Assembly: GCA_021773835.1 (NCBI GenBank) | Contig: JAJFJQ010000032.1 | Span: forward strand, 1-64,000 | DNA from: Gammaproteobacteria bacterium | Lineage (GTDB): Bacteria > Pseudomonadota > Gammaproteobacteria > Ga0077536 | Reading direction: 5' to 3' | Length of the DNA: 64,000 bases | Part shown: positions 6,761 to 46,549 of the stretch, piece after piece | Position numbering within the stretch: position 1 is the stretch's first letter | Layout: each line of letters begins with the position of its first letter | The notes under the pieces: model-generated | Seen by the model: the letters and a program-made list of their open reading frames with translations, nothing else | The model's database searches: none | Told to the model about the DNA's origin: nothing | Position numbers and translations under genes: made by a program

Positions 6761-6792
6761 AATTTCGGTAGGGTTTCGCTTAGAGCGTCTTA

Positions 6793-7737: not shown

Positions 7738-7815
7738 TTCATAAACCTCTTTTGTGACGTTTTAGCTTGGGTATCCGACGTTGGATGCTCGATTACCCTA
7801 CCTGCCGTGATCATA

Positions 7816-12132: not shown

Positions 12133-12180
12133 TAAAGAAGCCATTCGATACTTGTGCCCATCGGCGAAGGATAGTTTCCA

Positions 12181-13773: not shown

Positions 13774-14759
13774 GCATTATTGAGCGCGCAATAAACAAAC
13801 TGGACGGTAAGGATGTTGTCGACGAGGGCGAGCGCACCGAGGATCACGACGTCTCGAAGAAGCAAAATATTGGTCCTGTAGAAACCACCATAGAGCCGGT
13901 AACAAAGGTAAAGACGGTAGAGAGTTCCGAGCCACCGCCTAGTACAACCGCGGATCCCAAGTCAGATGTCGGTAGCCGTGCATCAAGTGGAATTGAAGGC
14001 CGAAAAAAATCTGCTGCTCCCGAAATTGTTAGAATTGATTTGGAGCGCTTAGCAGCCGCCGGGTTTTTGAGCTTCGATGGAACCAATTCGCGTCAAGACG
14101 AGGACTACCAGAAAATAAAGCGGCGGGTGCTGGCCAATACCGTCCCCGGTGTGAGTTCTTCGGATAAACCGGCGAATCTGATCATGATTACGAGTTCGGT
14201 GCCGGGCGAGGGCAAGACGTTTACCTCAGTCAATATGGCGCTCAGTCTCACTAGAGAAGTCGACCACACGATATTGGCTGTAGATACCGATATTGTGAAA
14301 CGAGACATGTCGCGCATGTTCGGCGCGCTTGACCGAAGGGGGCTGTACGACGTCTTGAACGATCCGAACCTGCCACTTGCCGATGTGATGTACCGTACGA
14401 ACATTCCCAATCTCGTTATCCTTCCTGCCGGGCTGAATCAAGCGGTTAGAACCGAAGTCTTAGCGAGCGCACGCATGCGAGCGATTACGGAGGAGTTATC
14501 GACCCGGTATAGCGATCGCTTAGTGATTTTTGATACCTCGCCGATATTGGCGACGAGTACGGCGATGGCATTGGCCCCTCAAGTTGGACAATTTATTCTC
14601 GTGGTAGAAGCGAACAAGACGAAGCACGAAACCCTAAGTGCGGCGCTTAATTTAATAGACGACACGCCGGTGACAGGCTTGATACTCAATAAATCGAAGC
14701 AACAAACGAGAAACACGTACGATTACTACGGCTATTACACAAAGGGCAGCGACTCCTAG
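13770..14759 (+). CDS. XrtA-associated bacterial tyrosine autokinase
   Basis: This 329-residue cytoplasmic BY-kinase (Wzc/CpsD type) has a disordered N-terminus rich in E, D, K and P to about residue 85. The kinase domain then shows the Walker A motif SSVPGEGKT (142-150), the A' motif LAVDTDIVKRDM (about 169-180), and the Walker B-like LVIFDTSP (about 250-257). The C-terminus has a tyrosine cluster (TYDYYGYY), the expected autophosphorylation tail. The ATG overlaps the stop of the chain-length gene, so the two are translationally coupled. Phosphorylation cycles of this kinase would control polymer length and export. No stand-alone phosphatase is next to it; the only tyrosine phosphatase domain in the window is fused to an ATP-grasp protein at 49470-51209. 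Confidence 0.94.
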   Translation: MSIIERAINKLDGKDVVDEGERTEDHDVSKKQNIGPVETTIEPVTKVKTVESSEPPPSTTADPKSDVGSRASSGIEGRKKSAAPEIVRIDLERLAAAGFLSFDGTNSRQDEDYQKIKRRVLANTVPGVSSSDKPANLIMITSSVPGEGKTFTSVNMALSLTREVDHTILAVDTDIVKRDMSRMFGALDRRGLYDVLNDPNLPLADVMYRTNIPNLVILPAGLNQAVRTEVLASARMRAITEELSTRYSDRLVIFDTSPILATSTAMALAPQVGQFILVVEANKTKHETLSAALNLIDDTPVTGLILNKSKQQTRNTYDYYGYYTKGSDS

Positions 14760-14764
14760 AACAT

Positions 14765-16222
14765 ATGGCTTGTCAACGTCATTGCCGTTTTGCGAAGGGT
14801 TTAGGCATCGGCGCCGCAATAACTGTGGGCGCCATTTCAGGCGCTAGCGCTGGCGACTGGACGTTCGTACCTCATTTAAGCATTGATGAGGAATATTCGG
14901 ACAATGTCACGACAAGTGGGCAAAACACGCTGCAGGATTTTATCACTACGATTAACAGTGGGCTTTCGTTACGCGGCACCAGCGCTCGCTTGAATTCGAA
15001 CGTCGATTACAATTTGCAAAAACTAATTTACGACGCCGAAGATAATTTCAGCGGGTTGAATCACCAACTTCAGGGGACGACGGAGTTCACTATCGTAGAT
15101 CAGCTGTTTTATTTTGAGGCGAACAGCAGCATTTCGCAGCAGGCTATCGATAACTCTGGTGCTTTCGGCAGAAACAATCGCACGCAGGCCGGCAACCGTA
15201 CTGACATAATATTTACTCAACTTCGGCCGATAGTCCGCCATCATTTTGGAAAATATGGCGATTTCGAGGGATCGTTTACACAAGGGATGACGACATCATC
15301 GGGCGGCAATATCAATACCCGCGGTTCGGGTGACAATGACGCCGTTAATTTGCGATTTTCCACAGGGCGCATCTTACCGGTAATGCCCATCACCATTTCA
15401 TTTGATCGAAATACGGAAGACTTCGATTCTGGTCGAAATAATCAGCAAGAACGTCTGAATGCGGAGATCTCATATATTTTTGATCGCAGACTCAGAGCCA
15501 TTTTCGAAATCGGTGATGAAGATAATACATCGAGTAATTCGACTGGAAGCACCGGCAACGGCATGACATGGTCTGTAGGAGGGCGATGGAATCCAGGACC
15601 GCGCACCGAGATCAATGGGAATTTTGGTGAGCGCGCATTCGGTAGCTCAACGAATTACTCGATATCTCATCGCCATAGACGATGGGTTTTTGGTCTCGAC
15701 TATAGCGAAGACATCCGGACGCGAAGCCAAGAATTACGAGATTTGGTGCTCGTGCCACTCACCGATGCATTCGGCAACCCGTTCTTTGATCCAACAGCAA
15801 ACTCCAACATCCTAAATCCTGAAGATCTTTCAACGATAAACGAGGATGTCTCGACAACAGAAAGACTCTCTGCGAGCTTGGATTACCAAGGCAGGTTAAC
15901 GTCTTTTTCGTTTGATTTTTATGACACCCAGCGAACGCGGCAAAGCGGCGGCGAAGAAAGTACAACTCGTGGATGGAATACTGCGCTAAATCGCTCACTT
16001 TCCCGTCGCTTGCGACTCGGAATGAGTATTTTTTACCGTGAAACTGAAACGGGCAACGTGCGGAACAATAAGATTATTATTTATAACCCGTTTGTTGCCT
16101 ATACCTTAGGCCCACACACGGAGCTCAATTTCGCCTATAGCTACCGCGATGGCGGTGGGCCGTCGATTAATGACAACCACATCGAAAATTCATTGACCGC
16201 GACTGTAACTCTGCATTACTGA
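14765..16222 (+). CDS. XrtA/PEP-CTERM-associated outer-membrane beta-barrel protein
   Basis: This 485-residue protein has an N-terminal signal peptide (GIGAAITVGAISGASAG). The mature part has alternating aromatic and polar residues, typical of beta-strands, and ends in VTLHY with the terminal aromatic residue expected of an outer-membrane barrel. The early motif PHLSIDEEYSDNV and the position between autokinase and ATPase match the TIGR03016-type barrel of exosortase A loci. It probably helps the polymer cross, or anchor at, the outer membrane. It begins 5 bases after the kinase stop and ends 9 bases before the ATPase start, so it belongs to the same operon. Confidence 0.88.
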   Translation: MACQRHCRFAKGLGIGAAITVGAISGASAGDWTFVPHLSIDEEYSDNVTTSGQNTLQDFITTINSGLSLRGTSARLNSNVDYNLQKLIYDAEDNFSGLNHQLQGTTEFTIVDQLFYFEANSSISQQAIDNSGAFGRNNRTQAGNRTDIIFTQLRPIVRHHFGKYGDFEGSFTQGMTTSSGGNINTRGSGDNDAVNLRFSTGRILPVMPITISFDRNTEDFDSGRNNQQERLNAEISYIFDRRLRAIFEIGDEDNTSSNSTGSTGNGMTWSVGGRWNPGPRTEINGNFGERAFGSSTNYSISHRHRRWVFGLDYSEDIRTRSQELRDLVLVPLTDAFGNPFFDPTANSNILNPEDLSTINEDVSTTERLSASLDYQGRLTSFSFDFYDTQRTRQSGGEESTTRGWNTALNRSLSRRLRLGMSIFYRETETGNVRNNKIIIYNPFVAYTLGPHTELNFAYSYRDGGGPSINDNHIENSLTATVTLHY

Positions 16223-16231
16223 TTAAATAAT

Positions 16232-17392
16232 ATGTACGAAGCGTTTTATGGGCTTAGCGGAAAGCCGTTTCAGCTAAATCCCGATCCGAAGTTTTTCTAT
16301 CGCAGCACCGGCCATAAACGAGCAATGGCCTACATGCGTTACGGGATCCAACAAGAGCAAGGATTTATCGTCGTTACCGGCGACGTCGGTACTGGGAAGT
16401 CTATGTTGGTAAGTAACCTTTTCAAGGAGATCGAAGGGCAGAACCTTATCGCCGCTAAAATTGTTTCGACGAATATCAAGGACATCGATCTACTACGTCT
16501 ATTAAGCGTAGAGTTCTCGTTACCCTATGAGCGAAAATCGAAGGCTGCGCTGCTTTCTGGTCTAGAGGCCTTCTTCCGCGCAGCGGTCGAAGAGGGTAAG
16601 CGAATTCTGTTAGTCGTCGACGAGGCACAAAATCTTCCGCGTAGTGCTTTGGAAGAATTGCGAATGCTTTCCAATTTCGAGCATGAAGGTAAGCCTCTGG
16701 CGCAGAGTTTTTTGCTCGGACAACGAGAATTTCGCGTCGTCATGCGGGCGCCCGGATTAGAGCAGTTACGTCAAAGAGTGATTGCCGCATACCATTTGAA
16801 GCCACTTTCCCTGCCAGAGGTAAAGCACTACATCAAGCACCGACTACAAACGGTGGGTTGGAAAGACGATCCACAGATCGCCGACGAGGTTTATGAAAAA
16901 ACTTATACGATAACCTCGGGTGTGCCACGGAGAATCAATACGCTCTTCGATCGACTATTGCTGAATGGCTTTCTTGACGAAGTGCATGAAATTGGCTTGA
17001 ACCACCTTGATGTTGTACGGGAAGAGCTTGAACTCGAACAGGGTGACGACATCAACGACGAAGACCAAGTTGCCTATCAGCACAGTATGCAGGCATCTCC
17101 AGATACAGTGGGCCTTAGCGCCCCTACGTCGTCGACGGGCGCCGGGGAAAACGACCCTAACGCGTCAAAACTAGAAGAAAAAATACAGCATATGCAGCAC
17201 ACCATCGATCATCTTTCTCAACTCGTGGCGCAATCGCAATCGCAATCGCACTCGAATAGTCGTCAACCAGAACCAATTCCAGATCCAATCGGGGAACAGT
17301 CGAAATTTCCGCTGTGGACCTCTGCATTCATTGGTATCTGTATCGTAGTAGTCCTAGCGGGCTCTGTCCTCGGATATTTCGTGCTTGGCTAG
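16232..17392 (+). CDS. XrtA-associated ExeA-like ATPase
   Basis: This 386-residue AAA ATPase of the ExeA/GspA type starts with the typical MYEAFYGLSGKPFQLNPDP. Walker A is GDVGTGKS (50-57) and Walker B is LLVVDEAQNL (about 126-135). The ATPase part ends near residue 270. A linker follows with a coiled-coil segment and a Gln-Ser run encoded by a hexanucleotide repeat at 17231-17254. A C-terminal membrane helix (FIGICIVVVLAGSVLGYFVL) anchors it in the inner membrane. In XrtA loci this ATPase always neighbours the barrel protein and is thought to power or order assembly of the export machine; the exact role is not established. Confidence 0.92.
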   Translation: MYEAFYGLSGKPFQLNPDPKFFYRSTGHKRAMAYMRYGIQQEQGFIVVTGDVGTGKSMLVSNLFKEIEGQNLIAAKIVSTNIKDIDLLRLLSVEFSLPYERKSKAALLSGLEAFFRAAVEEGKRILLVVDEAQNLPRSALEELRMLSNFEHEGKPLAQSFLLGQREFRVVMRAPGLEQLRQRVIAAYHLKPLSLPEVKHYIKHRLQTVGWKDDPQIADEVYEKTYTITSGVPRRINTLFDRLLLNGFLDEVHEIGLNHLDVVREELELEQGDDINDEDQVAYQHSMQASPDTVGLSAPTSSTGAGENDPNASKLEEKIQHMQHTIDHLSQLVAQSQSQSHSNSRQPEPIPDPIGEQSKFPLWTSAFIGICIVVVLAGSVLGYFVLG

Positions 17393-17487
17393 CCTGGCGT
17401 TTGACCTAGGGCATAATCGGTTGAGCGGATACATCCATCATTGCAAATTCGATAGTTGCGTCTGTGAGGTAGGGTAGGTACCAGTGC

Positions 17488-18351
17488 ATGAATGCAGCAG
17501 GCACAATGAGAAATGCACTGACGTTTGACGTGGAAGAGTACTTCCAAGTGTCGGCCTTCGAAAAGCAAATCTCACCTTCGGACTGGGACAAATGGCCGTC
17601 TAGGGTTGAGGCGACGACGAACGGGCTGCTCGATCTGCTAGCTCAGTTTAATGTCAAAGCGACATTTTTCACGCTCGGCTACATCGCACAGAATCATCCC
17701 ATGCTGGTACGACGAATTGTAAGTGACGGACATGAGCTGGGCTGTCACGGCATGCAGCATGTGCGGATCTCTGAGCAGACTCAGGTTGAATTTCGAGAGG
17801 ATATCTCGCGCGCAAAACAAATCCTTGAGGACTGTGTTGGGACTGCCATACAAGGTTATCGTGCGGCGAGCTTTTCCATCAACCGCGCGAATTTTTGGGC
17901 GTTCAAGGAAATGGAAGAGGCTGGATTTATCTATAGTTCCAGCATCTATCCAGTACAGCGAGATTTGTACGGCATCCCGGATGCCCCGCGGGTACCATTT
18001 AACCCACACGAATCTAACCCGGGCTTTATCGAGATTCCGATCTCAACAACTCGGATTATCGGACGCAATTATCCGGTCGGCGGTGGGGGGTTCTTCCGTC
18101 TGTATCCGTATTCATTCTCAAAGTTTCTTGTTCGTCGCGTGAATAATGCGGAGAAGATGAAGGTAAATATGTACTTTCACCCATGGGAGTTCGACCCGGA
18201 GCAGCCGCGGATTGAAAACTTGCCGGCGAAAACAAAATTTCGGCATTACCTAAATTTAACCCGATCGATCGAACGTATGAAGCGCCTCTTGAGTGATTTT
18301 TCTTGGTCCTCGATGAACGACGTTTACGCTGAAGAAATTGGTCTAAGTTAG
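17488..18351 (+). CDS. XrtA system polysaccharide deacetylase (NodB fold, DUF3473)
   Basis: This 287-residue protein has the signature start of XrtA deacetylases (ALTFDVEEYFQVSAF), where the DVE acidic residues belong to the NodB active site. The metal-binding histidines are seen in LGCHGMQH. The C-terminal part (YFHPWEFDPEQPR) is the DUF3473 segment typical of this subfamily. It lacks a signal peptide. It likely removes N-acetyl groups from the growing glycan or its lipid-linked intermediate. The start ATG at 17488 could also be the ATG 18 bases further in (MRNALTFDVEE). Its stop overlaps the start of the FemAB-like gene by one base. Confidence 0.93.
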   Translation: MNAAGTMRNALTFDVEEYFQVSAFEKQISPSDWDKWPSRVEATTNGLLDLLAQFNVKATFFTLGYIAQNHPMLVRRIVSDGHELGCHGMQHVRISEQTQVEFREDISRAKQILEDCVGTAIQGYRAASFSINRANFWAFKEMEEAGFIYSSSIYPVQRDLYGIPDAPRVPFNPHESNPGFIEIPISTTRIIGRNYPVGGGGFFRLYPYSFSKFLVRRVNNAEKMKVNMYFHPWEFDPEQPRIENLPAKTKFRHYLNLTRSIERMKRLLSDFSWSSMNDVYAEEIGLS

Positions 18352-19400
18352 TGGACCACGGCAGCGAAATGAAATTGAGCTATTCAATCAGTCGGCTCAA
18401 ATCAGAGGACTCTGCAGCATGGGACAACTACGTCGCCAATAACCCAGGTGGAAGTTTTTTCCATCTAAGTGGTTGGCGGACAGTACTTGAAGCGGCGCTT
18501 GGCCATCAAACCCATTACGTTATTGCAAAAGGAGAATCCGAAATCGTTGGGGTGTTGCCCCTTGTACACGTAAAAAGTTTTCTATCCGGTAGCAACCTCA
18601 GTTCCCTCGCGTTCGGTTCGTACGGCGGGGCAATTGCCGATAATGACGATATTCGTGATGCTCTCGAGCGGTACGCGGTAGAACTTGGCCACGAGCTTAA
18701 TGTCGGTAGCGTTGAATTTCGCTATCTTGAAAGTACCGGAAAGGCTAGGCCAATAAAGAATTTATACGAACGATTTGTAAAACCGATTTGCGCTGACGAA
18801 GAGGAGAATATGCAAGCTATCCGCGGCAAGCAGCGTAACGTTATACGTAAAGGGATTAAGAACGGACTTGAGTTGCACGTCGATACTTGTACCTCGTTTT
18901 ATGAAACTTATGCGGAAAGTGTTCGGAATCTGGGGACGCCAGTATTTCCCCGCAAACTATTCGAATCGCTAACGGAGGTCTTTTCCGATTCGACGGAAGT
19001 ACTAACAGTATCTTTAGACGGTACGGCCATAAGTAGTGCGATTGTGTACTACCACGGAAACGAGGTGTGCCCATATTATTGGGGTGGAAAGTTCGCGGCA
19101 AGGTCCCTAAAAGCAAACGATGTCCTTGCCTGGAAGATAATGTGTCGCGCTGCGGAACGAGGTTGCACGAGTTTCGACTTTGGACGCAGCAAACGCGACA
19201 CGGGGTCATATCAATGGAAGCTTAACCTCGGTTTTGAACCGATACCGTTATCGTACGAATACGAATTGATCAACGACGGTCAAATTCCTGAGGTCAATCC
19301 ATCAAATCCAAAATATAAACTATTTATCGACGTGTGGAAGCGATTGCCGTTAAGCGTTTCGAAAATTGTTGGTCCGGTAGTTTCTCGAGGTCTCGGATAA
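18351..19400 (+). CDS. FemAB-like XrtA/PEP-CTERM-associated protein
   Basis: This 349-residue protein belongs to the FemAB/GNAT superfamily group always found next to exosortase A (TIGR03019 type). Visible features are the N-terminal DNYVANNPGGSFFHLSGW, the central basic KQRNVIRKGIKNGLEL, and the C-terminal FDFGRSKRDTGSYQWKLNLGFEP, a GNAT-type acceptor region. FemAB enzymes move amino acids from aminoacyl-tRNA onto cell-wall precursors; here the donor and acceptor are unknown, and modification of glycan or lipid intermediate is inference. The GTG overlaps the previous stop (TAGTG); an ATG at 18369 (MKLSYS) is an alternative start. Confidence 0.88.
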   Translation: MDHGSEMKLSYSISRLKSEDSAAWDNYVANNPGGSFFHLSGWRTVLEAALGHQTHYVIAKGESEIVGVLPLVHVKSFLSGSNLSSLAFGSYGGAIADNDDIRDALERYAVELGHELNVGSVEFRYLESTGKARPIKNLYERFVKPICADEEENMQAIRGKQRNVIRKGIKNGLELHVDTCTSFYETYAESVRNLGTPVFPRKLFESLTEVFSDSTEVLTVSLDGTAISSAIVYYHGNEVCPYYWGGKFAARSLKANDVLAWKIMCRAAERGCTSFDFGRSKRDTGSYQWKLNLGFEPIPLSYEYELINDGQIPEVNPSNPKYKLFIDVWKRLPLSVSKIVGPVVSRGLG

Positions 19401-19403
19401 CCG

Positions 19404-20936
19404 ATGGCTTCAACGAGTTCGCCAGATGCGCTAGCGTTACGGACCTGGCGAGTACACGGAGTAGCGATAGGGTTTGGGGTCCTTTGTACGATATACCTGT
19501 TCTTTGCGACCTATGCCAATGTGTTCGAGCTCTGGTGGAACACAAGTAGCTATAACCACTGCCTTCTCATAGTTCCAATTTCGTGCTACCTCATTTGGCT
19601 CAAACGTGTTCCGCTTTTTGCGACGGCACCAGGAACTTCGATGCTTGGCGTGGCCTTTATCGCATTGAACGCTGTTGTTTGGCTCACTGGCGAATTGATG
19701 TCAATCAATCTGTTGAGTCACCTTGGGTCCTTCGGATTTATCATCGGAATGCTTTGGGCTTTGATCGGAACCCAAAAGTTTCGGCTTCTCCTGTTTCCGT
19801 TGCTTTATTTGTACTTCGGAATCCCGGAAGGGGATTTTCTCGTGCCGTATTTGCAAGACTTGACCGCGAAGGTTGTTGTCTTCCTGCTACGTGCAAGTGA
19901 TATACCAGTCTTTCTTGAAGGCCGGTACCTGGCAATTCCGTCGGGAAATTTTCACGTTGCGAAAGCGTGTAGCGGAATCAATTATCTAATTGCGACCTTA
20001 GCGGTCGGTACAATGTTCGCTTACTTGAGATTTCGAAGCGGCACACGTCGTGCGCTATTTATGCTTCTCGCAATATTCGTCCCTTTAGCCGCAAATGGCG
20101 TACGAGCGTACGGGATCGTAATGATCGCACATCTGTCTGAATATAAGTATGCAATGGGGGTTGACCATTTTATTTATGGTTGGTTGTTTTTCGGGGTTGT
20201 TATTTTTGCGCTATTTTCAATTGGAAATTTATTCAGTGACGAGGACGATAGTTCTCAACCGGCTGAACCCAAGTTGATACACGATTCGCCGAGATATTCA
20301 TTGTCCACGGTTTTTATATGTGGGATCGCATTGGTGGTTGGTACTCGGGCCTTTGCAATAAATGTTTCGGACATTGGTCACTCCAGTTTGGCATTTCAAC
20401 TACCCGAGTCGACTAGTGGTTGGCAGTTAATTGTCGTGCCTAAAAGCCCTCTTGGTAGTAACTTTGTCGGTGCAGCAGTATCTCAAAGCGGCTCATATGC
20501 CGTCCCGGGAGATGAGCAAACGGCGGTCGATATCGAGGCCCATTATTATCGGCACCAGGCGCGTGACGCCGAGATCATCAACTTCAGCAATGAGATTTAT
20601 GATGACAAAATTTGGCGACGAATGGATGGACCAACTGTACATTCGACTGGCACAGAAGTTGTAGGCAACGTCAATCAATTCATATTGAAGTCGGGGGTCG
20701 ACTTCGAACGAGTGGTCTGGGCTTGGTACGATATAAGCGGATCACCGACGCTGAACCAATTCACCGCCAAAGCGCTGAGCATAAAAGGCGCACTTTCAGA
20801 TAACTATCTAGGAGAGGTGGCGATCATCATTTCGACACTAACCGACGGCGATTTAGAGGCTTCAACGGATAGACTGAGACGGTTTCTACGGGAAGTGGAG
20901 CCGACTATCGCCCACATGACCAGCGTTCGGGATTAA
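19404..20936 (+). CDS. xrtA: Exosortase A with fused EpsI domain
   Basis: This 510-residue protein is the sorting enzyme of the locus. Residues 1-275 form a multi-pass membrane domain with the exosortase catalytic residues: Cys in AKACSGINY (about 188), Arg in ANGVRAYG (about 233) and His in VDHFIYGW (about 254). The rest, after a short acidic linker and one more membrane segment near 300, is a periplasmic EpsI-type (DUF3485) domain with the motifs VDIEAHYYRHQ and FERVVWAWYDI. Fusion of exosortase A and EpsI is common in this family. It is predicted to cut PEP-CTERM proteins at the inner membrane and pass them on; the PEP-CTERM gene at 6793 is a substrate. It begins 4 bases after the FemAB-like gene and is the last gene of the core run. 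Confidence 0.96.
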   Translation: MASTSSPDALALRTWRVHGVAIGFGVLCTIYLFFATYANVFELWWNTSSYNHCLLIVPISCYLIWLKRVPLFATAPGTSMLGVAFIALNAVVWLTGELMSINLLSHLGSFGFIIGMLWALIGTQKFRLLLFPLLYLYFGIPEGDFLVPYLQDLTAKVVVFLLRASDIPVFLEGRYLAIPSGNFHVAKACSGINYLIATLAVGTMFAYLRFRSGTRRALFMLLAIFVPLAANGVRAYGIVMIAHLSEYKYAMGVDHFIYGWLFFGVVIFALFSIGNLFSDEDDSSQPAEPKLIHDSPRYSLSTVFICGIALVVGTRAFAINVSDIGHSSLAFQLPESTSGWQLIVVPKSPLGSNFVGAAVSQSGSYAVPGDEQTAVDIEAHYYRHQARDAEIINFSNEIYDDKIWRRMDGPTVHSTGTEVVGNVNQFILKSGVDFERVVWAWYDISGSPTLNQFTAKALSIKGALSDNYLGEVAIIISTLTDGDLEASTDRLRRFLREVEPTIAHMTSVRD

Positions 20937-23463: not shown

Positions 23464-24403
23464 TGTCAGAATTAGCGACCGCTAAGTGAACGAGCACACC
23501 TATTTATTTATCGAAGATTCTGTTGATAGTTCTCGTATAAGAATATGTCAATTATTCGTGTACTTAAGAAGCACAAATTGATCGCCATCGTAGAAAGTGA
23601 GCACGCACGGTTGGGACCGACGGGTTTGGTAGTCCGAGATAATTTGGGAAATGAGTAAAGCAGTGTGGGGGAAGCGCTAGGGGCCGATAGTAACTTCTTT
23701 TCGATGGTTGCCGCAGCGGACGGCGCGAATTGCAAAATCCATGGAAATAGCCAGCAGAAGCGCATATTGTTTGGTTCAGTCGTACGGGAGGCGCAGATTG
23801 GCGCTTTGGCTCGCCTTTTAGTTTGTGAAAATTTGTTAGTAGCTTGCGCTACGGGATCTACTCAGTAATCGGCCATTCGACGGCACGATATAATTCGTAG
23901 TTGGAAGTATGACAATCGTATCATTTCGCAAACTGAGTACCTGAGAAAGCTGGAGCTAGAGGAAAGTTTTCCATCGCAACTACGTGGGCGACATGTTGTT
24001 TACTGAGCATTCCGGTCATTTGCTATGGGCCACTGCGATGGCTGGGGAATCTAATATGGCCTTTCGAATTCAAGTTATGGAACGATCGATTCGACGGTAA
24101 TGTTGTTTCTCAGAAGTACCCTGTGGCTTATAGTCGAGAAGACTCTGCAAGGGAATCGGATGGGAAGGCATAATTTCGGTTGGAAGTGGCTATCGGTATC
24201 GTATTGGAGAGAGTTGCGGTATATCTACAAGAAGTACATCCGCACGTTGTTAGAGGCCGAATGGATCAGGAAAAACGAGTGTCATGGACACTGTAGAAAA
24301 ATACAACAGGCGACGAACTAGCGGATGCTAATTCGATAACTAGAGAATCTCACAGGCTCGGTCAACATTTGCCGAAGTATTGCGAACGGATGGGCAGAAA
24401 AAC
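23464..24403. other. Coding-like debris, no gene assigned
   Basis: No intact gene is seen in this 940-base stretch. Several short open stretches have a protein-like look but do not join: 23545-23658 (37 codons, starts MSIIRVLKKHKLIAIVE), about 23920-24000 (SQTEYLRKLELEE), and about 24020-24150 (YGPLRWLGNLIWPFEF). They may be pieces of one decayed gene between the acyltransferase relic and the sulfotransferase. I do not recognise the family. Confidence 0.3.
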
Positions 24404-25177
24404 ATGGTAGTAAGTCATGAACACAAGTATCTATTTATTGAAGTACCGTCAACCGGATCTACTGCAATAAGTGCGGAGCTCGTTAGCAATTACAACGGCG
24501 AAAAAATCATTCGTAAACACGCCAATTTCACCGAATTTAGGGACAAATATCCGCAAGAGGCGAAAGAGTATTTTGTTTTTGCAACGGTTAGAAACCCGCT
24601 GGATATAATCGTTACGGAATACATGAAGTTGAAAGGTAATCATAAGAAACAGTACACCACGCCGAAATTTTATGAACGTAACGGTGGATTCGTATCCGAT
24701 CTACAGCTTGAATGGTTTGAATACATCCGTTCCCGTGAAGCTGAGTTTTCTGATTTTTTCCAACGCTATCGAATGTCGATTTATCACAACTGGTTTCTTG
24801 TCTGTCACTCTCGATTTGATTACATCATGCGGTTCGAAAATCTAACAGAGGAATTTTCTAAGGTATTGGCCATGATCGGCATAGAATCCGCACGACCGCT
24901 ACAACAAGTTAATAAAACAGCACTTAAGGATCGCCAATTTGATCAGTATTATTCTGCGAACGTACACGACCGAGCTTGGCGTTCCTATGGGCCGTTTATG
25001 CGAGAGTGGGGGTATGATCATCCAGAAAGTTGGAATTGCGGAGAAATTGGTAAGGCAAACTTATTTAAATATAAGTTAAAAGAAACGCTGGTTAATAGCG
25101 CCGGTCGGGCGATAACCATAAGCCCATTTTCACCCATGATCCAATCGATAAAAAAAGTCGTAGATTCAATAGCGTAG
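24404..25177 (+). CDS. Sulfotransferase family protein
   Basis: This 257-residue protein looks like a carbohydrate sulfotransferase using PAPS. The 5'-phosphosulfate loop is IEVPSTGSTAIS near the N-terminus, and the 3'-phosphate segment is ATVRNPLDIIVTEYMK. FDYIMRFENLTEEF is the conserved mid-domain motif seen in the heparan-sulfate 2-O-type group. The frame opens at a TTG (24380), but the ATG at 24404 (MVVSHEHKYLFIE) is preferred because it places the PAPS loop at the usual distance from the N-terminus. It is cytoplasmic by prediction and stands alone between decayed DNA and the minus-strand operon. It suggests the polymer carries sulfate groups (inference). Confidence 0.75.
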   Translation: MVVSHEHKYLFIEVPSTGSTAISAELVSNYNGEKIIRKHANFTEFRDKYPQEAKEYFVFATVRNPLDIIVTEYMKLKGNHKKQYTTPKFYERNGGFVSDLQLEWFEYIRSREAEFSDFFQRYRMSIYHNWFLVCHSRFDYIMRFENLTEEFSKVLAMIGIESARPLQQVNKTALKDRQFDQYYSANVHDRAWRSYGPFMREWGYDHPESWNCGEIGKANLFKYKLKETLVNSAGRAITISPFSPMIQSIKKVVDSIA

Positions 25178-25531: not shown

Positions 25532-25780
25532 TTAGGGCTTGAGAAGCTTTAACAGACCGCTGACAGAGGTGAATTCATCGGGATCTGCGTCGGAGAAGTC
25601 CATAAGAATCCCAGTTTTCTCTTCGAGCTCGCTGGTCAATTCGAGAAAACCGAATGAATCGATTATTCCTAAGTCTATTAGGCTCGTCTGCTCGTTTAGA
25701 GTTTCGGCCGTCATCTCGGAACTCGCCATGCGGCGATTTAAAATGTCGAAAATGACTTCCCGTATTTCTTGTTCGTTCAT
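25532..25780 (-). CDS. Acyl/peptidyl carrier protein
   Basis: This 82-residue carrier protein has the phosphopantetheine attachment motif LGIIDSFGF, in which the Ser of DS carries the arm. Helical segments around it and the acidic character fit the ACP/PCP/DltC fold. It is the last gene of a five-gene minus-strand operon and starts 3 bases after the adenylation gene stops, so the two are almost certainly a pair, as DltA/DltC or a stand-alone A-domain with its PCP. It probably holds the activated amino or acyl group as a thioester for transfer by another protein, perhaps the GNAT-like protein at 27383. A matching phosphopantetheinyl transferase is not in the window. Confidence 0.9.
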   Translation of the reverse strand: MNEQEIREVIFDILNRRMASSEMTAETLNEQTSLIDLGIIDSFGFLELTSELEEKTGILMDFSDADPDEFTSVSGLLKLLKP

Positions 25781-25783
25781 ATT

Positions 25784-27379
25784 TTATCCTTCAGCCAACC
25801 GTTGTTCGAGTTGGCCACGATCAATTTTCCCGTTGGCATTTAGCGGGAATTGTTCAATTGAGTAAATCATTTTAGGCACCATGTACGGTGGTAAGGATTT
25901 TTCGCAGGCGTTTATGATGGTCGATACGTCTAAATTTGTTCCACAAACGAATGCCACGACTCCACTGGCGCTCGCCCCAACACGTGGCCAAGCGACCGCA
26001 GCTACCAATTCCGATTGGCATACGAGACGGACGACGCGCTCTATTTCTCCCAGCTCTACACGATAACCAAGTATTTTTACTTGGCTATCTACACGGCCGA
26101 TAAATTCGAGGTTTCCTTCATCATTCTGTTTTGCGAGATCTCCGGTTCGGTACCAACGCGAAGAAGTCTTCTCCGGGAATGCTTGATTAATAAACGCCAA
26201 TGCAGATTTTTCTGGTTCTTGCCAATAGCCGGGTGTAAGTTGGTTACCACCAAGGTGGAGCTCACCCGATTCGCCTGGCGGCGCTAACTTATTGTCATCG
26301 TTGATAATAACGGCTTCGAGATCGCCCATTGGTCGACCGATTGGCACGTAACCACCTGCGAGGGACTTGTCTAATTCATCGCCACGCCAGCGGTAATTTG
26401 TAAAGGCGATCGTCGCCTCCGTCGGACCATATAAATTTTCCACGAAAGAGTTTGGCGCGGCCTCACACCAAAGCCGCGCACTTTGTGCGGGTAATGCTTC
26501 GCCACAGAACCAGCTACACCGCAATGTCGGAAAGGAATTGGGTTTTAGGGTGCGAAGCTTGTGCATAAAACCGATTGTCGATGGGACAGAAAACCAAACT
26601 GTGAGATTTTGCTCGCGTATGAACTTGGCGGGGGCCATTACTGCACGGTCTGGGACCACGCAAAGGCATGCACCGACCGCCCAGCAGACAAACATATCAT
26701 GGACCGATAGATCGAATGTGAGGTCGAAGGTCTGTGAGAACCTGTCGTGCTCATCTAGCGGAGCTAACGCCAGCACATTGTTGACATACGCAAGGACATT
26801 ATCATTCGTGATGGGAACACCTTTTGGCTTACCAGTCGTGCCAGAGGTAAACATGATGTAAGCCGGAGCCTCCGATGCAAGTGCCGCCATCTCAAATGGT
26901 TGACCACCGATCGGAGCAGCAACTCGACACGGTATTCCCGCAATCGATTTTTTAAGATCGGCGTCATCGATGGTGATGAATGCTGGTTCATCTTGATTGG
27001 CCTTATAATTATCGAACTCCAGCGCAAGATATTCTGGATCGCAAATGATGTGCTTTAATTCAGCGAATTCCGCGATTGTCTGATTCCGTTCGTGTGGGAA
27101 CTTAGGATTTAAGGCTACGTAAGTTCGTCCGCTTGCGAGTATTCCGAGGATGCCTGCATAGGCTGTAGCGGTTCTATAGGCTATTACGCCAACCTGCTGA
27201 GTGGCGTCGACTTCATCAAGCGTAACCGCGAACCCAGCTGCCATAGATGCGAGGTCGCGATAGCTGAGCGTTTTACCGTCTACGGATAAGGCTGGACGGT
27301 CGGGAAATCTTCTATAGCTGCTCCAAAAAAGTCCCGCGATGCAGCGCATCTCTTTTAAATCGAAGTTTTCGGCACTCAT
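25784..27379 (-). CDS. Amino-acid adenylation enzyme (DltA/A-domain type)
   Basis: This 531-residue AMP-forming enzyme shows the full set of adenylation core motifs: YIMFTSGTTGKPKG (A3), FDLTFDLSVHDMF (A4 region), NLYGPTEATI (A5), WYRTGDL (A7), GRVDSQVKILGYRVE (A8) and LNANGKIDR with the catalytic Lys (A10). These are closer to amino-acid A-domains and DltA than to acyl-CoA ligases. It would activate an amino acid (or related acid) with ATP and load it on the carrier protein encoded immediately downstream. The substrate cannot be read without aligning the binding pocket. The next upstream gene ends 3 bases before its start, showing tight operon packing. The locus thus seems able to add an aminoacyl or acyl group to a sugar or lipid intermediate. 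Confidence 0.9.
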   Translation of the reverse strand: MSAENFDLKEMRCIAGLFWSSYRRFPDRPALSVDGKTLSYRDLASMAAGFAVTLDEVDATQQVGVIAYRTATAYAGILGILASGRTYVALNPKFPHERNQTIAEFAELKHIICDPEYLALEFDNYKANQDEPAFITIDDADLKKSIAGIPCRVAAPIGGQPFEMAALASEAPAYIMFTSGTTGKPKGVPITNDNVLAYVNNVLALAPLDEHDRFSQTFDLTFDLSVHDMFVCWAVGACLCVVPDRAVMAPAKFIREQNLTVWFSVPSTIGFMHKLRTLKPNSFPTLRCSWFCGEALPAQSARLWCEAAPNSFVENLYGPTEATIAFTNYRWRGDELDKSLAGGYVPIGRPMGDLEAVIINDDNKLAPPGESGELHLGGNQLTPGYWQEPEKSALAFINQAFPEKTSSRWYRTGDLAKQNDEGNLEFIGRVDSQVKILGYRVELGEIERVVRLVCQSELVAAVAWPRVGASASGVVAFVCGTNLDVSTIINACEKSLPPYMVPKMIYSIEQFPLNANGKIDRGQLEQRLAEG

Positions 27380-27382
27380 CTA

Positions 27383-28399
27383 CTATCGCTCGCGGTCTCT
27401 TGATAAAGGTCGAAACGAATCGTCGCCTCGAAGGTAGGTTAAGTGGCTATCTTTGTCTGGAAATTCGGCATTGCTTTGGCTCCACCAAAAAACGGGCTGA
27501 GGAGAACTCGCACTATAGTCATTATGTATATAGGCGTCGGCGATTTTGGGCGAAGAACACCGTGACAGTATTCTAACGGCAGACCTTTGTGTGAGCTCTT
27601 GCGTTAATAAATCGATCGCGGACTGATACAGCGATAAATCGTCATCTACGCATTCAAGGTGGACTATCTGCGCTCTTCGATACTCCTTGCCCTCATATAA
27701 CCGGCTAATTGAATAGCCAACAAACTCGGTTCCACGCATAAAGCGCAGCCAAACGTATTCCCCAACGTTCTCCGGCGCCGTTGAAAACCACTCGATTTCC
27801 CAAGGATGGAGATTAGGAGCAAGTGCGCTAAATTGGCGAGACCGCAGCTGTTCAAGCTCACTGTTAGACGGTGGACTCTCTATTGCATGCAGATCATATT
27901 GTTCGTTATCTGAACCAAGTTTCCTTCCAATAGAACTAAACCGTTTCAAGGTCGACCGAGCTGTTGAGCGCCAGTTATTCATTTTATTAAACAGTAAAAC
28001 GGGTGACAAATTGTTCCAGCCTAACTTTAAAACGATTTTTTGACTGATTTCGGTGCCGCGCACTGAAAGGATCGGTTGTTCGCGGCGCATTAACGTTTGT
28101 AGTACCCGGATCCCTAGTCCTATCGGCTGATATGCGGGTTGGCAGTACCATTCTGACGTTTCTTGGACAGAGTAATTTTGTCCACTCGATTTATAGTCTC
28201 TTAACTGGCTGTCTATAAACGCAATGCATTCTCCTTTTGCCAAGGCAATTACCGGTTCGGCATTGGTCCGGGAAAAGTACCGCCAGTTGACGAAGTCCTC
28301 CAGTTCAGACTCCGACCAGCTCGAAAATCGAGTCTTTCGCAAATGCGCGATAACAGCTGGGATATGTTGAACACTCAGCGATTCGATTTCGATAGCCAT
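27383..28399 (-). CDS. GNAT-fold N-acyltransferase-like protein
   Basis: This 338-residue protein is probably of the GNAT superfamily. The N-terminal 130 residues contain the FVNWRYF segment and YQPIGLGIRVLQTLMRREQPIL, a position where GNATs bind the pantetheine of CoA or a carrier. A second half (LHPWEIEWFSTAPENVG, VWLRFMRGTEFVGYSIS) looks like a second GNAT-like repeat, as in FemAB-type or tandem GNAT enzymes. It sits between a possible deacetylase and the adenylation/carrier pair, which makes it the best candidate for transferring the activated group from carrier protein to an amino sugar (inference). Family assignment is by pattern only. Confidence 0.55.
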   Translation of the reverse strand: MAIEIESLSVQHIPAVIAHLRKTRFSSWSESELEDFVNWRYFSRTNAEPVIALAKGECIAFIDSQLRDYKSSGQNYSVQETSEWYCQPAYQPIGLGIRVLQTLMRREQPILSVRGTEISQKIVLKLGWNNLSPVLLFNKMNNWRSTARSTLKRFSSIGRKLGSDNEQYDLHAIESPPSNSELEQLRSRQFSALAPNLHPWEIEWFSTAPENVGEYVWLRFMRGTEFVGYSISRLYEGKEYRRAQIVHLECVDDDLSLYQSAIDLLTQELTQRSAVRILSRCSSPKIADAYIHNDYSASSPQPVFWWSQSNAEFPDKDSHLTYLRGDDSFRPLSRDRER

Positions 28400-28429
28400 G
28401 AAATACTTACCAAATCCGGATTCAATTAA

Positions 28430-29668
28430 TCATCCGAAGGACAATTTAAATTCTGAAGCCGACGTCGTTTCTTCCAACGTATATGCCGATACTTCGATGT
28501 CATTACATAAAACTCGAATATTACGATTGCGAGTCGCCAACCCAAACTGATGATCTTTGAGGTCATTAATGTCTAGCGAAGGGAATCTGATGTCGTCGGG
28601 ACGAAAATGAATCTCATCATTGACAACAGTCGCGTTGTCGCGCAGCACTAAGTAGTCAAGTAATTTCGACGTGGACGAAAGCTTAATTCTACCGGCGTTA
28701 TGTTCGTTGGCTAGTTGGACAAAAGTATCGCGAGTCGCTTGCGGGATATGTTGCCTATTTTCGTTCAGTTCTCCATGCCGTTTTCCTAAATGCGTATAGA
28801 GGATCATCGTTCCTTCGGATTGAATTAGTTTAGTAATCGTTTCAGGGTTTAGGATCTTGCTAATACCATCGATATCGCCCAATTGCCAACTACCGAACCG
28901 TGGAAAGCAATAGAATTCCGTTCCGTCAGGAAATTTGTGCCGATAATATTGTCTGTTCGCAGCGCGCGAATATGTGAATACCGTCGGATTGCGAAATTGC
29001 TGAAGTCCCGCTGTGAGGTTATCTAGGACGGAGATTGCGGTTCGTGTCGTTTTACTGAATCGCAATCCGGACTCCTGATACCATCGATGGCGACTGAGCG
29101 TGCGATCTTGGCCTATGGGCGCCCGTACCAAATTTCCGTTCCAGATATAGCGAATGCCGGCGGATTTAACTAAATCTAATGTATACAGATCGTTCTCGTA
29201 AACGTATCCAGCAGTGTCCTTAATGGTCGGTGTAGACGTTACATGCGGTCTGTGCAGTAGGTTCCCGATAAAATTCGAATGATCGGTCCAAACTTTAGGA
29301 ACGATCGAGTACTTCAGTAGTAAATCAATTCCTGCGAGAGCATCTGATCTTGTAAAGCGATAGTTGCCAGAAAAAATAAAGTCGCCCCACGTGTGCAATG
29401 TGTCGTGCATGTGGGCGCCAATACACTCGGGACGATCTCCTAAAGACACCTGCTCGGTGGCCTGTAAATTTTTATTCGTAATAAAAAAGGAATCGGCAAA
29501 GGGGAGCGCCAATTCCTCCCAAATAAAAGTGTGAACCTCTTGCCAGTTATCTAATGCTGTGAAATCGGGATCGCTAGATAGAGCGAACCAACATTGGTAC
29601 GGAGGAGGGTAGGCGAGAAGCCCGAGTTCCTTTGATTGTTGTACGATGCGACTCATCGATTGATGCAA
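28430..29668 (-). CDS. Possible carbohydrate deacetylase-like protein, unassigned
   Basis: This 412-residue protein has no family I can name firmly. It has features reminiscent of NodB-fold deacetylases: an early acidic pair in ALSSDPDFTALD, a central His-rich stretch (GAHMHDTLHTWGDF), the segment TSTPTIKDTAGYVYEND, and later ILYTHLGKRHGEL with another conserved-looking His. There is no signal peptide. It lies in the operon between the carbamoyltransferase and the GNAT-like gene. If it is a deacetylase it could expose an amine that the GNAT-like protein then acylates (inference). It could equally be a different metal-dependent hydrolase. Confidence 0.45.
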   Translation of the reverse strand: MHQSMSRIVQQSKELGLLAYPPPYQCWFALSSDPDFTALDNWQEVHTFIWEELALPFADSFFITNKNLQATEQVSLGDRPECIGAHMHDTLHTWGDFIFSGNYRFTRSDALAGIDLLLKYSIVPKVWTDHSNFIGNLLHRPHVTSTPTIKDTAGYVYENDLYTLDLVKSAGIRYIWNGNLVRAPIGQDRTLSRHRWYQESGLRFSKTTRTAISVLDNLTAGLQQFRNPTVFTYSRAANRQYYRHKFPDGTEFYCFPRFGSWQLGDIDGISKILNPETITKLIQSEGTMILYTHLGKRHGELNENRQHIPQATRDTFVQLANEHNAGRIKLSSTSKLLDYLVLRDNATVVNDEIHFRPDDIRFPSLDINDLKDHQFGLATRNRNIRVLCNDIEVSAYTLEETTSASEFKLSFG

Positions 29669-29748
29669 ACAGTCCTAGTTCCTAAGTGCGTTAGTCGCTT
29701 TCAAGATCCGCAACTATTTGAATTATTGCGCAGGGAGCTGCTTGTCAC

Positions 29749-31503
29749 CTATGGCTTCGATAACCTAATGTTTCCAAGATAAAGGCGATCAATTTTGACA
29801 CGCATAAACGTTTCAATGGCGATCGACGGCGTGGCAATCATTGGTTGGGAGCGAACGTTGAAGGAGGTATTCAGCGTGCAATATATACCGGTACGCTTAC
29901 CTATCTCTTCGATTAAGTAGTGAAACATTGGGTTTTTTGCTCTATCTACGGTTTGAACCCTCGCGGATCCATCTACGTGAGTTATTCCTGGCAGTTTAGA
30001 TTGCCAGTCGGGAGCAACTTGACAAGTCGCCAGCATATACTCGAACGGAGCTGCACTGGTATCAATTTCAAAATAGTCACGAGCGTGCTCCATCGTTACC
30101 GCAGGAGCGAACGGACGGAACCCTTCACGTAGTTTTATTATCATGTTCACCCGTGATTTGATGTCCGGGGAGGCTGGGTTCGCAATTATTGTTCGGTTGC
30201 CGAGCGCGCGCGGGCCAAACTCCATGCGACCCTGGAACCATGCCTGGACGAGGTCGTCGGCAACACCTTGAGCGGCATCGGCGGCGGCTTCCTCAACGCT
30301 ACCGAATTCTTCGACGATGAAATCACCTTCGGCGCTATCTATCGCTCGTGAAATTTCATCCTGGGTCGCTTTGGGCCCGTAGAACGGCATCTCCTGGTGA
30401 CGGCTTTTGGCAAGATCTTCACCGCTTTTGTGGGCAGCGAAGAGTGCTGCGCCGAGAGACGTCCCGTCGTCGCCAGCGGCTGGCTGGATATAGAAATCGG
30501 AGAATATGTTTTGCTCAATTAGTTTGCCGTTGAATGTGCAGTTCAGAGCCACACCACCAGCCATACACAGATTATTTAGACCGGTAGCTTTTTGCCAATG
30601 GGAAATATTGTGCAATAGTGCTCGCTCTAAACATTCCTGTGCGGCAGCGGCAAAATCGTAGTGCTTCTGCTCCATGGTTTCGACGTCGTCGGGTGTTTGT
30701 ATGATCCGACCAAAACTTTCAAGGACGTCTCGATAAAGCGGGTCTCGGGATTTAGTACCGGTAAGGTTTTGGTATTGTATTTCGAATTTGCCGTTATCTC
30801 GCAAATCCACAAAATCATCGAAAAATTGTCTAAAAGAACTTGGCTCCCCATAGGGAGCCAATCCCATTAGCTTGTATTCGTCGGCATTGAACTTAAAGCC
30901 TAAATGGCGAGTTACAAGGCTATACAATATGCCAATTGAATTCGGAATAGAGATCTGGTCCAGTCGATTGAAGGTGCCGTCGTTAACCTCGTATATCGTG
31001 AGTGATTCGAGTTCGCCCATTCCATCACAAACGACGCACAATGATTGTTCGAAATTGCTCGGGAAATAGGCGCTTGCGGCATGCGCGAGATGATGATTTA
31101 TCGACTGGAATTTCGTCTCCGCGGCTTGTAACCCTAGCTTGTCTTCACACAATCTAACCTGTAGATCTGGATTGAGAACCTGCTCATAAAGGTCGGGTTC
31201 GAATTTTTGATAAAAAGCCGCAGCCGTACGATAGTTGAAGCCATGAGCAACTATGTCGACATCATTTATAGAAATGCCGGCTTCGTCTAAGCAAAATTCA
31301 ATCGAAAGTTGAGGAAATCGGTTAGTGTGCTTTTCGTCACAAAATCGCTCTTCCGCCGCCGCCGCAATTACCTTCCCGTCCACAAGTAATGTGGCTGCAC
31401 TATCCAATCCTTGCACCATTCGTTCTTCGCCCGGTAACAGATCTGGATTGCGGGCTGCGAACGCGGTAGACGCGTTTAAACCGCTGTATCCAAGTACAAT
31501 CAT
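29749..31503 (-). CDS. Carbamoyltransferase (NodU/CmcH/TobZ family)
   Basis: This 584-residue enzyme is a clear O-carbamoyltransferase. The frame is open to 31554, but the ATG at 31503 (MIVLGYSGLN) is preferred, with AAGAGGAA upstream and the family's usual N-terminal GYSGLN start. The N-terminal YrdC/Kae1-like half carries NHHLAHAASAYF, the metal/nucleotide histidines, and CDGMGE. The C-terminal half has AGGVALNC and the hallmark EFGPRALGNR. Such enzymes make carbamoyl-adenylate from carbamoyl phosphate and ATP and pass it to a sugar hydroxyl. It is the first gene of the minus-strand operon, with a possible operator at 31611-31631 upstream. It indicates that the polymer or an attached small molecule carries carbamoyl groups. 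Confidence 0.93.
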   Translation of the reverse strand: MIVLGYSGLNASTAFAARNPDLLPGEERMVQGLDSAATLLVDGKVIAAAAEERFCDEKHTNRFPQLSIEFCLDEAGISINDVDIVAHGFNYRTAAAFYQKFEPDLYEQVLNPDLQVRLCEDKLGLQAAETKFQSINHHLAHAASAYFPSNFEQSLCVVCDGMGELESLTIYEVNDGTFNRLDQISIPNSIGILYSLVTRHLGFKFNADEYKLMGLAPYGEPSSFRQFFDDFVDLRDNGKFEIQYQNLTGTKSRDPLYRDVLESFGRIIQTPDDVETMEQKHYDFAAAAQECLERALLHNISHWQKATGLNNLCMAGGVALNCTFNGKLIEQNIFSDFYIQPAAGDDGTSLGAALFAAHKSGEDLAKSRHQEMPFYGPKATQDEISRAIDSAEGDFIVEEFGSVEEAAADAAQGVADDLVQAWFQGRMEFGPRALGNRTIIANPASPDIKSRVNMIIKLREGFRPFAPAVTMEHARDYFEIDTSAAPFEYMLATCQVAPDWQSKLPGITHVDGSARVQTVDRAKNPMFHYLIEEIGKRTGIYCTLNTSFNVRSQPMIATPSIAIETFMRVKIDRLYLGNIRLSKP

Positions 31504-31631: not shown

Positions 31632-31902
31632 GCTTGATGCAATTCGACACAGTACTGATTCACGTTTTACTAGTTACAATTTTTAGCAAATCCTAGTTGA
31701 AATTGCGGGCGCGAATTCCTATAAATCATTACTGCAGGATATCTACTGTCGATTTCAAGGATTGATCGGAAGCTAATTATCTTTCCGAATTAGTACACCA
31801 GGCTTTGAAGGTGCGATACCATCCTTGTCCTTATAAATCACGCAAATTATCGTCTGGATCTCCGTTGATATCGGTATGTCGTACGGCGAGAGGAAGCCTC
31901 AT

Positions 31903-32643
31903 ATGAGCAATGAGACTGGCGACAGCCACGACATCGATGCACAAAAGGAATTCTATGATGCAAGGTGGGCTGCGGAGCAATATGCTGGTCGATTAAAGCT
32001 TCGTCGAAGCGCTGTCATTCTCGAGTTACTGGGACAGATAAAAATTGAGCGACCCAAAATACTTGAGCTAGGTAGTGGCAGCGGTTGGTTAACTTCTATA
32101 TTGGGACAATTTGGCCCAACTACCGGTGTTGAATTATCGCCGGCGGCGATCGAAGAAGCATCAAAACGATATAGTCACGTTGAATTCGCTCAAGTCGATC
32201 TCGCGCATTGGGATCCGGCGGCAAATACACACGACGTTGTCGTCAGCCACGAAGTTTTGGAACATCTAGAAAATCAAGACCAACACCTTCAGCAGGCCTG
32301 GAAGGTGCTGCGTCCCGGCGGTTACTTGATCCTAACTACGCCGAATTACAAAACGATGCATGCATTAGAACGTGATCGTAGGGATACATGGACCACGCAG
32401 CCGATCGAAAATTGGGTTACCCGAAAAAAACTACGAATGCTTCTGCGTAGTTGCGACTTCAAAATTGAACAGGAGACGACGTGCATTCTGGGGCACGGCA
32501 ACCGCGGGATCCGCAAAGTTGTAAATTCCTTTCATGTCAACAAGATCATGAAGAATTTAGGATTAGACCAACACTTTGACTGGCTGCGCAAGCAGTGGGG
32601 TTTCGGCCTACACTTAGTCGTACTTGCTGCGAAACCTAAATAG
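31903..32643 (+). CDS. Class I SAM-dependent methyltransferase
   Basis: This 246-residue protein has the SAM motif ILELGSGSGWLTSIL, the second acidic motif GVELSPAAIEEA, and HEVLEHLENQDQ followed by VLRPGGYLILTTPN, typical of class I methyltransferases of the UbiE/COQ5-like group. The ATG at 31903 is preferred over 31876 because GAGAGGAAG stands just before it. It is divergent from the carbamoyltransferase and convergent with the next methyltransferase. The C-terminal part (LGHGNRGIRKVVNSF) is characteristic of methyltransferases in polysaccharide or lipid loci, but the substrate is unknown. Confidence 0.85.
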   Translation: MSNETGDSHDIDAQKEFYDARWAAEQYAGRLKLRRSAVILELLGQIKIERPKILELGSGSGWLTSILGQFGPTTGVELSPAAIEEASKRYSHVEFAQVDLAHWDPAANTHDVVVSHEVLEHLENQDQHLQQAWKVLRPGGYLILTTPNYKTMHALERDRRDTWTTQPIENWVTRKKLRMLLRSCDFKIEQETTCILGHGNRGIRKVVNSFHVNKIMKNLGLDQHFDWLRKQWGFGLHLVVLAAKPK

Positions 32644-34124: not shown

Positions 34125-35129
34125 CTATTTTACGTTGGCACTACAAGCGCCGTTTTCCGAATACCACTGCGCGAATTCTGACAAGGTCTTGGTTTGCATC
34201 CCTGAATTATGAATGCAATGGCGGAAGGTCTCTTCGATAGTTTTTAGGAATCTCTTCAACTCGGAGGAGTCGGTTACATACGGTGTGAAACCGGGTTGCA
34301 GTGACGAGCTGTGGAACATCATCACAATGCATGGCGCGTCGTTCCGACGATATGCGTCAGCTAGTGCATTTAGCTGACGGCTTGTACTTTTTTCAGGCGA
34401 AAACTTTATCCTTTGAAGTATCTCTAATCGATCGAAGATCCCTCTCAGTCGCAAGCGGTTTAATGGCGGGTACGCTAGAAATTCGTATAGTGCGTATGCT
34501 TGTTCAAAGTTACTCCAGTTGAATCCGAAAGATACAGGTACCTCCAATAAATTGGTCGTGACCGATGAAGGCTGGCAAAGGTTATCGCCAACATAATAAG
34601 GTTTCCACGGCGCCCCTCGAAAATCAGGGCCGCCATCGCCAGAATAATCCATAAACGGACATACACTTGAATCGACAATATAGTTAAGCTCGCTAAGGAT
34701 TGAAGCTCCATCGCTATCCAATCCGTAGCGACCCGCTCTAAATGATGTCGGCGAAAGACCAAACCGCGACTCAATATGCTCAGTGACCGTAGTCAATTTT
34801 TCACGCTGTAAATCTAGTGGAAGATTACACAAGTACGACCGTACGCTATCTATATTGTGCTCTACAGGTGGCGTGTTCCAGGGGTGAATATGGCAACCGA
34901 TTTCACATCCGTTTTGTGCGATTATGCGATCGAGCACGGATGTTGCGCTAGTGTCGTCCAAAATTGGTGTATCAACGAGGTAGGTGGGCTTAATGGCGAA
35001 CGTATCGCAGATCGCTTGAAACGCGGGAACCCCCTTAATGTTTTCTACGGGGTTGTCACGGGCAGAGAACTGCCCCGACCACAGCCCTTCCTCTTCTGTA
35101 TCCACCGTAACGATTAACGTCGGCGTCAT
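34125..35129 (-). CDS. Polysaccharide deacetylase (NodB fold)
   Basis: This 334-residue protein has the NodB-type catalytic start LIVTVDTEEEG with its Asp, the metal-binding EIGCHIHPWNTPP (His-x-His), and SFRAGRYGLD, the later conserved Arg segment. There is no signal peptide. It resembles the WalW-type deacetylases of polysaccharide loci. It differs from the XrtA deacetylase at 17488, which has the DUF3473 tail. It is an isolated minus-strand gene, flanked by long gaps. It probably removes an acetyl group from a sugar in the polymer or its precursor. Confidence 0.88.
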   Translation of the reverse strand: MTPTLIVTVDTEEEGLWSGQFSARDNPVENIKGVPAFQAICDTFAIKPTYLVDTPILDDTSATSVLDRIIAQNGCEIGCHIHPWNTPPVEHNIDSVRSYLCNLPLDLQREKLTTVTEHIESRFGLSPTSFRAGRYGLDSDGASILSELNYIVDSSVCPFMDYSGDGGPDFRGAPWKPYYVGDNLCQPSSVTTNLLEVPVSFGFNWSNFEQAYALYEFLAYPPLNRLRLRGIFDRLEILQRIKFSPEKSTSRQLNALADAYRRNDAPCIVMMFHSSSLQPGFTPYVTDSSELKRFLKTIEETFRHCIHNSGMQTKTLSEFAQWYSENGACSANVK

Positions 35130-46480: not shown

Positions 46481-46549
46481 GCTCTCCTTCAGATGAAAAA
46501 CTGACCAGGGCCGAAAAAGCCGTTGAATAACGCACTAATGAAGGAGAGC
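46481..46549. repeat. 11-bp inverted repeat at the end of the DUF4091-like gene
   Basis: GCTCTCCTTCA (46481-46491) and TGAAGGAGAGC (46539-46549) are perfect reverse complements with 47 bases between. The second arm lies inside the last codons of the minus-strand gene. In the transcript it would form a long-loop stem. No T-run follows, so a protective or attenuating 3' structure is more likely than a classic terminator (inference). Confidence 0.5.

Follow-up and report, generated by a model that had tools for sequence, protein, structure and literature searches.

The window analyzed here, a 64,000-nucleotide stretch of a gammaproteobacterial genome, represents a polysaccharide locus of the XrtA (exosortase A) type. 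Within it lies a five-gene operon that may, with the balance of probability standing near even, serve to transfer an aminoacyl, probably glycyl, group onto a polysaccharide or its precursor and to carbamoylate it, using a Dlt/AlmEFG-like charging pair together with a GNAT-type transferase. A narrower reading, held more tentatively, is that the GNAT-type transferase places carrier-bound glycine on the exopolysaccharide, as a GNAT counterpart of Dlt/Alm aminoacylation, combined with O-carbamoylation. Most of the parts resemble known enzymes; their combination appears undescribed, and a literature search for it, with thin coverage of subscription journals, found nothing.

Operon structure and genomic setting

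The operon occupies the minus strand from position 31503 to 25532. Its five open reading frames encode, in order, an O-carbamoyltransferase of the NodU/NovN/TobZ type (29749–31503); a NodB/ArnD-fold protein, likely a de-N-acylase with a variant metal site (28430–29668); a GNAT-like protein, probably tandem, which is the proposed transferase (27383–28399); a stand-alone amino acid adenylation enzyme (A-domain) predicted to use glycine or some other small amino acid (25784–27379); and a carrier protein with the expected Ppant serine (25532–25780). The intergenic gaps in operon order are 80, 30, 3, and 3 bases, in agreement with the original prediction of five packed minus-strand genes, the last three of them 3 bases apart. 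The genes on either side, for a sulfotransferase (24380–25177) and a methyltransferase (31876–32643), run on the plus strand, hence the operon is considered self-contained. Scans of the operon with promoter and terminator consensus sequences gave no excess over shuffled sequence, and no sharp break in GC content was seen at the operon.

The XrtA genes at 11464–20936 encode an export protein, a chain-length determinant, a tyrosine kinase, a PEP-CTERM-associated ATPase, a deacetylase, a FemAB-like protein, and exosortase A, which bears out the XrtA polysaccharide setting proposed earlier; genes for UDP-glucose dehydrogenase, glycosyltransferases, and flippases are found from 36951 on. The window also contains a polysaccharide lyase gene (PF14099; 35944–36822, plus strand) within the biosynthesis locus, an apparent fusion of ATP-grasp and low-molecular-weight phosphotyrosine phosphatase (49470–51209, minus strand), and a gene for a 657-aa protein with no match in Pfam or NCBIfam (46535–48508, minus strand).

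Adenylation enzyme and carrier

The A-domain scores 341.5 bits with TIGR01733 (cut-off 317.4), matches PF00501 with E 4e-67, and has Lys518 at the position of GrsA 517, which places it among the amino acid adenylation enzymes. Alignment to solved structures yields the specificity pocket D-L-H-S-W-C-L-I-A-K. The AlmE pocket, D-L-H-S-F-C-L-I-A, is the same at eight of the nine positions compared, the tenth lying outside the alignment; the pocket is hence predicted to be of the AlmE glycine type, with Phe to Trp at position 299 as the sole change. Relatives of the A-domain have Leu, Ile, or Val at this position in nine cases out of ten, and Arg in the remaining one. The larger residue at 299 would narrow the pocket and therefore fit glycine. 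The equivalent of Asp235, expected in A-domains with an amino acid substrate, is also present. AlmE itself loads glycine on AlmF (PMC12930378). Pocket prediction, which had been proposed as a check, thus points to a small amino acid as the substrate, with glycine the likeliest.

The carrier scores 27.9 bits with PF00550 (cut-off 20.8) and has the Ppant serine in GIIDSFGF, as expected of a carrier protein; its score with the DltC-like model NF003464, 31 bits, is below the model cut-off. Related charging pairs have other partners, namely, an MBOAT-like membrane gene (read from sequence) in genome G071, and a gene for a 282-aa protein in Pseudochrobactrum. On a Solidesulfovibrio plasmid (L056, 11998–15569), a related A-domain and carrier are followed by a 241-aa protein and an N-acetyltransferase of the AAC(3) family, which may represent a further pairing of carrier and transferase.

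Carbamoyltransferase

The product of the first gene matches PF02543 (E 1.1e-56) and PF16861 (E 5.8e-61); its solved relatives in PDB are NovN (E 1.9e-103), GdmN, and TobZ. The alignment to NovN shows that the HHLAHA, DGxGE, and FGPRALGNR motifs are kept. Given both Pfam domains and the metal and carbamoyl-phosphate motifs, the protein is assigned to the O-carbamoyltransferases, and its family membership suggests the corresponding activity. A 118-aa open reading frame resembling what is left of a further carbamoyltransferase gene was observed about 44 kb from the operon (L078, 14721–15077, minus strand).

Carbamoyltransferase relatives with about 43% identity from Kitasatospora, Streptomyces, a Burkholderia glumae plasmid, and genomes G129 and G677 adjoin NRPS, PKS, carrier, or condensation genes, and relatives of the A-domain on plasmids of Azospirillum and Vibrio tubiashii sit in metabolite-type clusters. 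Such neighbors would be expected under the main alternative, by which the operon makes a small carbamoylated metabolite derived from an amino acid, and its position in the polysaccharide locus is incidental. We consider this possible, but on the unlikely side: the operon lacks genes for condensation, ketosynthase, thioesterase, and exporter proteins, it lies in the midst of polysaccharide genes, and the closest gene set, that of genome G208 (see below), contains a glycosyltransferase.

NodB-fold protein

The second gene has a TTG start at 29668, with ATG at 29656 being the likelier one. Its relatives were sought with an alignment to a protein from an Alicyclobacillus plasmid; 32 were collected, from Alicyclobacillus, Psychromonas, a Phycisphaerales MAG, a Neomarinimicrobiota MAG, and others, and none was found in viral contigs or phages. 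AlphaFold, run on 25 sequences, gave a model with pTM 0.80, whose best Foldseek match is ArnD (probability 1.0). VIA-align superimposes the model on the polysaccharide deacetylase 3s6o with Z 15.0 (rmsd 3.3, 221 residues aligned), on PuuE with Z 14.9, and on ArnD with Z 11.8. The modeled protein hence has the deformed barrel of NodB-fold deacetylases, and the initial concern that it might fold as something else is not borne out.

In comparison with the NodB motifs, the conserved residues are D33-x-D35, H92-(S/T)-x-G-D96 replacing HSxxH, and H293; the protein itself reads H92-TWG-D96. The Asp-His-His metal triad is incomplete, as Asp and the first His are kept and Asp96 stands where HSxxH has its last His. 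Since Asp at this position is kept across the family (30 of 31 members), deacylase activity is plausible and is predicted. The barrel fold, the paired Asp, and the HTxx and LxxH motifs are common to the second gene product and NodB-fold enzymes of the ArnD/WbmS/PuuE type; unlike these, the family has Asp for the final His of HSxxH and no match to a sequence family in Pfam or NCBIfam. Based on the model, we consider the protein a likely de-N-acylase.

The Psychromonas relatives adjoin glycosyltransferases. The fetched neighborhoods of the 32 relatives, a few of which end at contig edges, contain no A-domain, carrier, or carbamoyltransferase genes. Another putative NodB/WbmS-type deacetylase, judged by its sequence (DTEEEG, HIHPW) and without a Pfam or NCBIfam family, is encoded at 34125–35129 of the window (minus strand).

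GNAT-like protein

The match of the third gene product to PF00583 (E 0.003, 18.2 bits) is below the cut-off of 20.7 bits. The QPIGLGI loop in its N-terminal half, as read from the sequence, resembles GNAT motif A (pyrophosphate-binding). The order of elements in a single-sequence AlphaFold model (pLDDT 36) resembles two GNAT-like halves, to which we give little weight. No relatives were found in 369 genomes of the class, in plasmids, or in viral contigs. Comparison with the GNAT-like protein of G208 gives a shuffle z of 3.1, the top value of 21 pairs, the others not exceeding 1.6; the G208 protein has no relatives on plasmids. Two other candidates were rejected: the Solidesulfovibrio gene upstream of the related A-domain shows no similarity and only sub-threshold winged-helix matches, and the 282-aa Pseudochrobactrum gene after the A-domain and carrier, GNAT-like by eye, also shows no similarity (z –0.5). 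Thus, among the enzyme classes named in the original prediction, the carbamoyltransferase, the NodB-type fold, the A-domain, and the carrier stand on profile or fold matches, while the assignment of the third gene as a GNAT is weakly supported.

GNATs usually use acyl-CoA, and deacetylase/acetyltransferase pairs are common in polysaccharide loci. These two points, as well as the likeness of the QPIGLGI loop to the pyrophosphate-binding motif, would agree with the A-domain and carrier forming an aminoacyl system of their own, and the GNAT-like protein being an ordinary acetyl-CoA N-acyltransferase that acts separately, with the deacetylase and the carbamoyltransferase, on the polymer. However, the charging pair would then have no transferase in the operon, though gaps of just 3 bases separate the genes for the GNAT-like protein, A-domain, and carrier, and in G208, too, a GNAT-like gene accompanies the A-domain and carrier; we therefore hold this explanation to be rather improbable.

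Recurrence in another family

In the sample of 369 genomes, relatives of the A-domain (E<1e-60) are found in 12, and of the carbamoyltransferase (E<1e-120) in three, the window's own genome being counted in both cases. The best non-self match is the same for both proteins: G208, a genome from another family, where the genes lie on one 10.5 kb contig (L060). The order there is GNAT-like (3676–4731), carbamoyltransferase, glycosyltransferase, A-domain, and carrier, different from that in the window; identities to the window proteins are 56% for the carbamoyltransferase, 41% for the A-domain, and 32% for the carrier. The glycosyltransferase, of family 2 (6720–7797), has a broken frame, due to an assembly error or a pseudogene.

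In G208, estimated to be 90% complete, neither a copy of the second gene nor an exosortase was detected. By sequence comparison, the recurring unit is hence the carbamoyltransferase, GNAT-like protein, A-domain, and carrier, and it is independent of XrtA and of the deacetylase-like gene. Four genes, including the GNAT-like one, thus co-occur elsewhere; for the deacetylase-like gene, a place in the set is supported neither by G208 nor by the neighborhoods of its 32 relatives, and the specific link to XrtA is likewise not upheld. As G208 is the single independent occurrence of the four-gene set among the sampled genomes, sampling limits how much weight the association can bear.

The same observations bear on a further explanation, that shuffling of genes assembled the operon as a loose decoration cassette whose parts do not form one pathway. 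The differing gene order in G208 and the lack of co-occurrence of the deacetylase-like gene with the others, both in G208 and around its relatives, are in its favor; still, four of the five genes are also grouped in G208, which belongs to another family, despite the carbamoyltransferase clade being present in very few sampled genomes, and we regard this explanation as improbable.

Proposed pathway

In the favored reading, decoration of a polysaccharide, the A-domain would adenylate a small amino acid, glycine being the likeliest, and charge the carrier with it through the Ppant arm, a step strongly indicated by family and pocket. The GNAT-like protein would then take over the carrier-bound aminoacyl group and attach it, at an amine or a hydroxyl, to a sugar in the surface polysaccharide or a lipid-linked precursor, and the carbamoyltransferase would carbamoylate a hydroxyl of the same product. 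The NodB-fold protein, whose link to the set is the loosest, may remove an acyl group and so expose an amine, similar to ArnD. The charging would thus follow the DltA–DltC or AlmE–AlmF style, and a GNAT-type enzyme would serve as the transferase.

This reading is favored by the tight operon being surrounded by export, chain-length, flippase, and glycosyltransferase genes; by the G208 contig, which holds both best relatives, a carrier, and a GNAT-like gene, with a glycosyltransferase between the carbamoyltransferase and the A-domain; by the AlmE-like pocket with Trp299 and the Asp235 equivalent; and by the NodB fold of the second gene product, together with the glycosyltransferases next to its Psychromonas relatives. 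Doubt comes from the weak GNAT assignment and the usual acyl-CoA dependence of GNATs, from the NRPS/PKS-type neighbors of the carbamoyltransferase relatives, from no amino-sugar pathway being recognized among the genes scanned, and from the four-gene set having one independent occurrence, in a genome with no exosortase detected.

Aminoacyl groups alter the charge and protein binding of cell-surface polymers, and the known carrier-based systems, Dlt and Alm, use transferases of non-GNAT types. If the proposed pathway is correct, the pairing of a GNAT-type transferase with carbamoylation would extend what is known of how exopolysaccharides are decorated, and the gene set would provide a sequence signature for searches. 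The A-domain pocket yields a direct biochemical prediction, glycine.

Comparison with known systems

The AlmEFG system of Vibrio cholerae, which attaches glycine to lipid A, similarly has a separate carrier and a stand-alone A-domain, the pocket of which is almost that of the operon enzyme. However, AlmEFG acts on lipid A, while the operon lies within an exopolysaccharide locus and has carbamoyltransferase and NodB-fold genes, both absent from AlmEFG. AlmG is not known to be a GNAT; in the operon, the GNAT-like protein is the only transferase candidate beside the charging pair, and none of the five proteins matches the lipid acyltransferases of Pfam. In DltABCD, responsible for D-alanylation of teichoic acids, charging by a DltA-like ligase and a DltC-like carrier resembles that in the operon; here, the A-domain scores 251 bits against the DltA cut-off of 560, none of the five proteins matches MBOAT (DltB), and the operon has no DltD. 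The carbamoyltransferase shares full-length homology and active-site motifs with NovN, GdmN, TobZ, and NodU, whose targets are antibiotics or Nod factors, whereas its own predicted target is a polysaccharide or a precursor.

A similar setting is that of the XrtA-associated module of ligase, decarboxylase, carrier, and hydrolase (TIGR03098, TIGR03099, TIGR03100, and TIGR03101), in which an XrtA locus likewise carries genes for an AMP-forming ligase, a carrier, and a GNAT-like protein. The standard form is present in the same window: the XrtA AMP ligase at 60762–62378 scores 633 bits with TIGR03098 (cut-off 592), and ligase and PLP decarboxylase together span 60762–63619, with TIGR03098 and TIGR03099 above the cut-offs. 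Directly beyond, on the same contig (L078, 3201–7726), are the PF13480 GNAT-like gene of the module, a carrier, and two hydrolases. Carrier chemistry at XrtA loci is therefore not new, and the original statement that no such system had been described there was too strong, as the NCBI models define both the ligase and the decarboxylase. The operon A-domain scores 194 bits with TIGR03098, far from the cut-off; unlike the XrtA module, the operon has an amino-acid-type A-domain and no decarboxylase or hydrolase, with carbamoyltransferase and NodB-fold genes added. The five-gene operon is a second module, distinct from the standard XrtA one.
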